Source of the DNA: Magnetococcales bacterium
GTDB lineage: Bacteria; Pseudomonadota; Magnetococcia; Magnetococcales; JADFYX01
Assembly: GCA_002753565.1 (NCBI GenBank)
Contig: PEAM01000022.1
Coordinates: 1-64,000 of the forward strand
DNA length: 64,000 nt
Direction of reading: 5' to 3'
In this document: positions 182-1,523 of the stretch, piece after piece
Position numbering within the stretch: the first letter of the stretch is position 1
Layout: the number at the start of each line of letters is the position of its first letter
Made by a program: the position numbers and the translations under genes
The notes under the pieces: generated by a model
What the model was told of the DNA's origin: nothing
Seen by the model: only the letters and a program-made list of their open reading frames with translations
Databases searched by the model: none

Positions 182-331
182 TGTTACCCGATTCCTGTCT
201 TGGCACAGTTTACGACTCTCTTGTCACCAGCAGCAAACGGGGTATAGCGGGAAGTGGCGGGATATAGCGGGAAGTTTCTTGTCACTACCGGGAGATTTCA
301 GCGTGTCGTGCGGAGAAGCTCTCTTGTCATC
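182..331 (+). repeat. Phage right-end transposase-binding repeats
   Basis: The terminal 24-mer at 182-205 (TGTTACCCGATT..) resembles the inverted terminus at 44181-44204. Internal copies TCTCTTGTCACC (217-228), TTTCTTGTCACT (275-286) and TCTCTTGTCATC (320-331) lie in the same orientation. A direct repeat ATAGCGGGAAGT occurs twice between 240 and 275. In Mu the right end carries three MuA sites in one orientation, and this layout matches. The last copy overlaps the stop codon of dcm. Confidence 0.65.
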
Positions 332-1523
332 ACCGATAAAAATCTAGCCAAAACTCCTCCCAGAAATTTGCTGTCACCGGAGCGTTTGACGTTTTCATAA
401 TAACTCGTCCGATCAACTCCGGGATCTGCGGAACCACGGCGTTGCCCAGGGCCTTCAGCCGTCCGACCCTGTTCTTGCGCTGTCCGTCCTTATCTCCCGG
501 TATCCTTGTGGTCACTCTTGGAACTCCCCATTCCCAAGATCCGTCCAACCACGAGGAAATCCCATCATACCCTCGACCCAGTCCGGGTTCAAGCGGCCAT
601 TGTTGGTCGGGTCTGCCGCCGTTACCATCTCGTTGAGCGGTCTGGAGTTCCGCTTCAGCGATTTCTGAGAGACTTTGCCGGACCGATGATCTCGAGATAA
701 TGGGGTCGGCCACATGGTCAAAGCCACCGCATCCTCCAACCGGCCCCTTGCTCCCGTTCCTTCCAGGCGTTTGCTGCCGATCCGCAGCTTGTGCGTCATA
801 CCGTCCCCGCAGCGTGGAGTCGGCCAGAGCTGACCCTGAACCGCACCCAATAGAGTCTGGCCACGTTTGCCGTCCGGCTGATTCACACCCTGCTTGGCTA
901 TGGCGGCTGTTGGTGTAGGCCATGTCTTGGGCATTCTTACCTGTGCCGCCAATGATTGAGCGCACCGATCGGTCCGATCCCCCATTCGTTTCAAGAATGT
1001 TGTCTGACCCTCTCCTTTTGCCGTATCGCTTGCCCGTGGCGTGAGCCACAATCCAGATCCGGTCCCTCTGGTGAGGCGCACCAACGGCGGAAGCTGGTAT
1101 ACAGTGCCATTCCGCGTCATACCCGAGCGACCATAGATTTTGCAGCACGATGACAAGCCCTTTAGAGCGCAGGGCGGCGACATTTTCGATGATGACCCAC
1201 TCAGGCCCCACTTCTTTAATAAGGCGGGCGAACTCGAACCAGAGCCCGGATCGTTTGCCGGAAAGCCCGGCTCCGAGACCGGCATTGGAGATGTCTTGGC
1301 AGGGGAATCCGCCACAGATAAGATCGATTGGTCCAACTTCCTTTTCAAGCTGCTCACCAGTCAACTCCAGTACATCTTTATAGATGGGAATCCCCGGCCA
1401 GTGCTTGGCAAGTACCTGGCGAGGGAATTCCTCTTTTTCACAAAATGCCACCGTGGCCATCCCGGCCCTTTCCAGGCCGAGAGAAAAACCGCCGATGCCG
1501 GAGAAGAGATCAAGAACCCTCAT
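330..1523 (-). CDS. dcm: DNA (cytosine-5) methyltransferase, phage-encoded
   Basis: This 397-residue protein should methylate the C5 of cytosine in a specific duplex target and is likely part of the phage's protection against host restriction. Visible C5-MTase motifs in order are the SAM-binding DLFSGIGGF near the N-terminus, the catalytic GGFPCQ with Cys at about 75, ENV at about 113, HQRDRIW at about 151, and a C-terminal GNAVVPQ at about 360. The stretch between about 160 and 340, the target-recognition region, is low in obvious structure and rich in G, R, S and Q. It is the last gene of the prophage and ends on the third right-end repeat. A long second ORF overlaps it in the +1 frame (512-1357). 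Confidence 0.93.
   Translation of the reverse strand: MRVLDLFSGIGGFSLGLERAGMATVAFCEKEEFPRQVLAKHWPGIPIYKDVLELTGEQLEKEVGPIDLICGGFPCQDISNAGLGAGLSGKRSGLWFEFARLIKEVGPEWVIIENVAALRSKGLVIVLQNLWSLGYDAEWHCIPASAVGAPHQRDRIWIVAHATGKRYGKRRGSDNILETNGGSDRSVRSIIGGTGKNAQDMAYTNSRHSQAGCESAGRQTWPDSIGCGSGSALADSTLRGRYDAQAADRQQTPGRNGSKGPVGGCGGFDHVADPIISRSSVRQSLSEIAEAELQTAQRDGNGGRPDQQWPLEPGLGRGYDGISSWLDGSWEWGVPRVTTRIPGDKDGQRKNRVGRLKALGNAVVPQIPELIGRVIMKTSNAPVTANFWEEFWLDFYR
512..1357 (-). CDS. Possible dual-coding ORF inside dcm (+1 frame)
   Basis: This 281-codon ORF starts with ATG and lies wholly inside dcm, shifted by one base. Its product does not look random. It has a Ser/Pro-rich N-terminus (SPAKTSPMP..), a block ending GTVYQLPPLV, repeated W-P-T-P units (LTPRASD, WPTPTAA, WPTPRCGD, WPTPLSRD) and a C-terminal LNPDWVEGMMGFPRGWT. 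From memory, such WPTP/LNPxWVE proteins recur among phage ORFs, either separate from or next to C5 methylases. The DNA for methylase motif GFPCQDIS reads SPAKTSP in this frame. It may be truly translated or only a by-product of the conserved dcm sequence; I cannot tell without comparative data. Confidence 0.4.
   Translation of the reverse strand: MSSLKRKLDQSILSVADSPAKTSPMPVSEPGFPANDPGSGSSSPALLKKWGLSGSSSKMSPPCALKGLSSCCKIYGRSGMTRNGTVYQLPPLVRLTRGTGSGLWLTPRASDTAKGEGQTTFLKRMGDRTDRCAQSLAAQVRMPKTWPTPTAAIAKQGVNQPDGKRGQTLLGAVQGQLWPTPRCGDGMTHKLRIGSKRLEGTGARGRLEDAVALTMWPTPLSRDHRSGKVSQKSLKRNSRPLNEMVTAADPTNNGRLNPDWVEGMMGFPRGWTDLGNGEFQE

Follow-up and report, generated by a model that had tools for sequence, protein, structure and literature searches.

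C5 cytosine methyltransferases have a small domain, formed by the recognition region and motif IX, and a large domain with the other motifs, and fragments of several of these enzymes complement each other in cells (PMC3404938). M.EcoHK31I (YGGCCR) is made up of two polypeptides, of which the larger contains motifs I-VIII and X and the smaller motif IX (PMC3404938). The gene of its small subunit reportedly lies within that of the large subunit and is read in a different frame (Lee, Kam and Shaw 1995). M.EaeI is similar to M.EcoHK31I. M.AquI (CYCGRG) is split in the variable region after motif VIII (PMC3404938), and its small subunit contains both IX and X. The enzymes of SPbeta-group Bacillus phages (Trautner et al. 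1996, cited in PMC12707154) contain several contiguous, exchangeable recognition modules of ~40 residues. No published account of a nested phage family was found in the literature searched. Prophage m5C enzymes of Paracoccus aminophilus with relaxed specificity (PMC3925955) looked like functional data for such a family; their relatives are about 700 aa (PMC5537653) and they are probably of another type.

The gene pair described here lies in a stretch of 64,000 nucleotides (positions 1 to 64,000 of contig PEAM01000022.1, Magnetococcales bacterium), referred to below as the window. It meets both the division of M.EcoHK31I (large chain with I-VIII and X, small chain with IX) and its reported nesting (small-subunit gene inside the large one, in another frame). 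In our opinion the pair is likely to be a two-subunit C5 methyltransferase comparable to M.EcoHK31I, with the catalytic gene harbouring the target-recognition domain as a nested frame; that the chains are expressed, form a complex and confer specificity is inferred. Two enzymes of a similar split plan are already known. The predicted recognition domain of M.EcoHK31I is in the large subunit (PMC3404938), whereas the window type has its cassettes in the small one, and neither the shuffled cassette array nor the wide phage distribution has been described in the literature searched. The split of M.AquI resembles that in the actinophages Samy, Vash, Bora and Clarenza; the window type differs in keeping motif X in the large chain and in having a wholly nested small gene. 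The recognition region of the pair resembles that of the multispecific Bacillus phage enzymes in being an array of short modules that can be exchanged, but the Bacillus phage modules share chain and frame with the catalytic domain, whereas here they are in the +1 frame.

The nested gene pair of the window

The window contains a Mu-like phage, as shown by transposase, transposition protein, tail sheath, tape measure, portal and terminase families. The C5 pair is present at one end of this phage, adjoining a D12 adenine methyltransferase (1916-2719, PF02086, E 3e-27). Phage Mu carries mom at the phage-end place where the D12 and C5 genes sit here. The location beside the D12 gene would fit a function in shielding phage DNA, a possibility inferred from location only. 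Beyond the end of the methyltransferase gene, at 185-380, repeated TTGTCA(C) and GCGGGAAGT-like words were seen by eye only; they are possibly transposase sites of the phage end.

We refer to the frame-0 protein as alpha and to the +1-frame protein as beta. The features of the pair are as follows.

330..1523, minus strand: alpha (dcm, frame 0), a C5 cytosine methyltransferase of 397 aa, with motifs I-VIII in its N-terminal half, motif X close to its end and no canonical motif IX
1287..1310, minus strand: motif IV of alpha, GFPCQDIS; its +1 reading is SPAKTSP (1306-1286), in the weakly constrained beginning of beta
408..470, minus strand: motif X of alpha, RVGRLKALGNAVVPQIPELIG, downstream of the beta stop
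512..1357, minus strand: beta (+1 frame of dcm), 281 codons with a GTG start, the proposed target-recognition subunit
1365..1368, minus strand: Shine-Dalgarno-like GGAG, seven bases upstream of the beta GTG, read from the sequence
1082..1129, minus strand: RSGMTRNGTVYQLPPL of beta, the most conserved stretch ahead of the cassettes, with near-invariant columns
593..1048, minus strand: cassette array of four WPTP-type units in beta, with unit starts at 1048, 922, 826 and 712
542..592, minus strand: C-terminal LNPDWVEGMMGFPRGWT of beta, motif-IX-like, residues 256-272

Alpha matched PF00145 over residues 1-205 only (E 1.2e-43), and its match to TIGR00675 spanned residues 3-163. The catalytic motifs I, IV (PCQ), VI (ENV), VIII and X are all present in alpha; a canonical motif IX between the recognition region and motif X was not found in this chain. 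Beta gave no match in Pfam. It matched the PHROG_1008 profile (E 1.7e-31), as did all 33 aligned homologues; the entry is annotated 'DNA methyltransferase' but is silent on nesting, subunit role and cassettes. The stretch RSGMTRNGTVYQLPPL is predicted to form a beta hairpin (AF2 pLDDT about 88 locally) and lies immediately upstream of motif VIII of dcm, reaching towards it. That both chains of the window pair are made is inferred from sequence alone; there are no expression or activity data.

A preliminary description had reported a long ORF of 281 codons at 512-1357 in the +1 frame of dcm, and this held. The reported ATG start did not, since the start codon is GTG. The repeated WPTP units were confirmed with a correction: there are four, at beta residues 104, 146, 178 and 216, and the first reads WLTP. 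The end, given as LNPDWVExMMGFPRGWT, had to be corrected to LNPDWVEGMMGFPRGWT. It was right that the DNA of GFPCQDIS (1310-1287) spells SPAKTSP in the +1 frame. The claim that the GLGRGYDG region spells NPDWVEGM held as to the overlay, dcm EPGLGRGYDG (590-561) overlying LNPDWVEGMMGFPRGWT (592-542).

Openness of and selection on the +1 frame

Openness was compared with synonymous shuffles of dcm that preserve amino acids and codons. In the window, the +1 frame is open for 282 codons against about 149 expected (p 0.007) and the +2 frame is at the shuffle expectation, so the ORF is more than chance. A set of 80 viral loci (IMG/VR) was retrieved using alpha as the sole query. The +1 frame was open for 150-360 codons in almost every locus, against about 50-200 expected, and this was also seen in genomes of 44-50% GC; the +2 frame of the 80 loci had no excess openness. 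Related genomes provided 25 full-length canonical C5 methyltransferases as a negative control; their +1 frames were at expectation and contained neither a WPTP array nor a motif-IX-like end. In the record of Paenibacillus phage Tadhana both overlapping frames were annotated at deposition.

Selection was tested on 25 homologue pairs by an OLGenie-like procedure, in which every difference was classified according to what it changes in each of the two frames, with omega for the +1 frame defined as dNN/dNS. The pairs are not all fully independent, and confidence intervals are from a block bootstrap over sites. The +1 omega was 0.76 [0.60-1.18] for codons 1-50, 0.80 [0.59-1.01] for codons 63-100, 0.53 [0.39-0.71] for codons 100-130 and 0.33 [0.24-0.46] for codons 130-160; the last value is the selection evidence cited for RSGMTRNGTVYQLPPL. 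It was 0.36 [0.29-0.41] over the cassettes (the WPTP region), 0.25 [0.18-0.34] over the last 30 beta codons (the conserved end, motif IX) and 0.77 [0.58-1.01] past the end of beta. The +2 control ranged from 0.95 to 2.08 and was above 1 for codons 100-130, codons 130-160, the cassettes and motif IX. Purifying selection thus acts on the +1 frame in homologues of dcm.

The alpha frame is under selection as well; its omega is 0.09-0.24 over the catalytic part and 0.16 downstream of beta. Over the cassettes the alpha omega is near neutral (0.90 [0.77-1.02]) and that of the +1 frame is low; the conserved protein in this region is therefore the unannotated one and not dcm. Synonymous divergence of alpha was 0.78 before and 0.65 after the constrained overlap, against 0.25-0.27 at codons 100-160 and 0.18-0.22 over the cassettes and motif IX. 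In the window's own gene the +1 ratio was below the +2 ratio in all six comparators, yet it was only 0.59-0.99; these comparators are distant (60-73% identity), too far for a strong selection test, and the +1 signal is weak.

Alpha has no stops across the cassettes in 81 loci, against 322 expected from beta-synonymous shuffles. These loci were chosen by alpha, which gives a bias towards an open alpha; in a set chosen by beta (described below), 78 loci had alpha in view, and in 77 of these it stayed open until at most 40 bases from the end of beta.

The rival explanation that the +1 ORF is a mere shadow of the amino-acid and codon usage of dcm, without a gene, finds some support in the first ~45 codons of beta, which are not significantly constrained (the 0.80 given above), and in the lengthening of chance ORFs by high GC. 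SPAKTSP lies ahead of dcm codon 100, around which selection sets in; it is mostly such a shadow, and its being part of a conserved product is not supported. For the ORF as a whole this explanation can be all but excluded: the frame is open also at 44-50% GC, it is absent from canonical enzymes, and its omega is well below 1 where dcm is near neutral. In addition, similarity was higher in +1 than in frame 0 for 3471 pairs and lower for 174, and beta can be intact where frame 0 is broken (locus L187, below). A chance or GC artefact was rejected on the openness in homologues, the canonical-enzyme control and omega.

The preliminary description had considered a true overlapping gene possible, to be refuted if the +1 frame broke in most homologues or if synonymous-site rates of dcm were equal inside and outside the overlap. 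Neither occurred; the frame was open in essentially all 80 IMG/VR homologues, and the rates were lower within the overlap. Frame openness and selection thus support the gene; expression of beta is untested.

In 75% of the 61 loci with a beta frame opening within alpha, at least 5 bases matching the Shine-Dalgarno sequence preceded a possible start; the figure for synonymous shuffles was 21%. These loci are related, so the enrichment is supporting evidence only. The match in the window itself is four bases.

Motifs IX and X and the two-chain reading

The end of beta has the consensus LNPxWVEWLMGFPxGWT. In one clade of relatives (L049, L058, L069, L087, L088, L093 and a Megaera plasmid) the motif IX sequence is present in frame 0, directly ahead of motif X (LNPDWVEWLMGYPISWTDGGSRMQRLQSLGNAVVP). 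Actinophages such as Samy, Clarenza, Vash and Bora have split genes that overlap, in which beta contains both IX and X and alpha terminates after VIII. Frame 0 has stops in Samy, Vash and Clarenza, in Samy and Vash shortly after motif VIII. Gordonia phage Jabberwocky and Mycobacterium phage Ritam007 have all parts in one chain and retain, ahead of the fusion point, a vestige of the +1 reading, and fused chains are present among the viral contigs too. In profile comparisons the fused chains served as a bridge, matching the end of beta with probability 95.5 and canonical motifs IX-X with probability 90.6; when the end of beta was compared directly with canonical motif IX, the result was not significant. 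The motif-IX identity of the beta end rests on the actinophage intermediates and the frame-0 copies in relatives.

For one fused chain (L168), AF2 modelled the catalytic domain and the IX-X region with confidence but left the cassettes under pLDDT 50; the best PDB matches of this model were M.HhaI and M.HaeIII. Beta alone was modelled with a pLDDT of 55.8 and a pTM of 0.25, too low-confidence for a fold search, and was confident only at the hairpin near residues 78-90 and at the IX helix. No solved relative of beta was found in the PDB (best E 0.76).

As alpha corresponds to the large domain and beta to the small one, and given the M.EcoHK31I precedent and the complementation by fragments, a separate recognition subunit is the simplest explanation of beta. 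Frame 0 would supply the catalytic domain (motifs I-VIII and X), and the +1 frame, from its own internal start, a small domain of one to six target-recognition cassettes of ~34 residues followed by motif IX. The two chains would assemble into the active enzyme, as is the case for split C5 methyltransferases, both artificial and natural. Cassettes are swapped between phages in both frames at once, and such exchange would give phages altered or additional target specificities and thereby shield their DNA from restriction by the host. The production of both chains, their assembly, the reading of DNA by the cassettes and the anti-restriction role are all inferred.

Alternatively, programmed ribosomal frameshifting may join the N-terminal half of dcm to the +1 frame, giving one chain with I-VIII, cassettes and IX and no separate beta. 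A joined chain would be workable, since in-frame fusions occur in actinophages, and the early end of frame 0 in Samy and Vash would agree with it. We nevertheless consider frameshifting unlikely. A single shift into +1 would cost the window type its motif X, internal starts with Shine-Dalgarno sequences are enriched, and the +1 frame is constrained (codons 100-160) upstream of any needed junction; slippery sites were not systematically searched for.

Two further arrangements were observed. In L187 (604-1688) the alpha frame is full of stops past motif VIII and beta is intact; motif X was not recognised in either frame, by regular expression and by eye. L136 and L142 represent a subgroup in which alpha ends in PLAHGxPARVxxLxGYGNAxVPQ and a WPTP-type +1 frame ends in LNPxHxRWLMGxPPxW, so the phenomenon may reach beyond the sets tested for selection.

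Distribution of the pair and variation of the cassettes

A second viral set, chosen by beta, comprised 80 loci retrieved with the beta alignment. Beta was nested in alpha in 69 of these, extended past the alpha end in 9 and was cut by the contig end in 2. Of 80 bacterial loci, 72 were nested, 7 overlapping and 1 unclear; they derive from Pseudomonadota, Bacillota, Planctomycetota, Bacteroidota, Actinomycetota, Synergistota and other phyla. The nested arrangement is thus shared by phages and prophages from a wide range of bacterial phyla. Free-standing beta genes were not found among the 80 viral and 80 bacterial loci examined.

The sole bacterial locus classed as 'other' was that of Sphingomonas sp. 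BT553 (L293), where the script read an alpha frame that terminates early, ahead of beta. Five places on one Roseovarius MAG chromosome (OX638333.1; L285, L286, L287, L289 and L290) had identical beta match statistics, which suggests that they may be several copies of one prophage.

Another rival explanation accepts beta as a true overlapping protein but gives it a different role; it might have originated by overprinting and act, for example, as a separate regulator or anti-restriction protein. Selection indicates a product and not its role, and AF2 gave no clear fold. Such a role appears improbable, however, because beta was never seen away from alpha in the loci examined, is fused to alpha in actinophages and carries motif IX, in some lineages also X, whereas alpha is without IX.

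For the recognition-subunit reading, the variation of the cassettes is of importance. Cassettes were cut between WPTP-type motifs by means of a regular expression, and their boundaries are approximate. In 155 non-redundant beta proteins we found 483 cassettes with a median of 34 residues, mostly two to four per protein, belonging to 74 recurrent families in 135 distinct arrangements. Family 0 is mainly the conserved region ahead of the first cassette. Members of a given cassette family are present at different positions and beside different neighbours, and two loci (L017 and L053) that are 99.6% identical over their first 480 bases differ by one whole cassette. This shuffling suggests that the cassettes are interchangeable specificity modules, an inference from position and variability only; DNA recognition is untested.

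A bolder reading, for and against which we see equally good grounds, is that of a widespread phage methyltransferase family whose specificity would reside in a mobile cassette array, open and moving in two frames. The selected reading would be in the unannotated frame of the nested subunit, the annotated frame being merely stop-free to reach motif X, and targets would be gained or changed by cassette exchange. If cassettes do set specificity, phage methylomes could be read from sequence, and the cassettes would be a ready parts list for split methyltransferases. Many records annotate one frame only, so recoded or single-frame clones of phage methyltransferases could look inactive. The family is also a large natural set for the study of dual coding, in which the location of motif X seems to predict the openness of the second frame. 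In the +1 frame of Paenibacillus polymyxa plasmid pAP1 (L104) two copies of LNPxWVECLMGFPLxWT were observed, as if the beta end had been duplicated.
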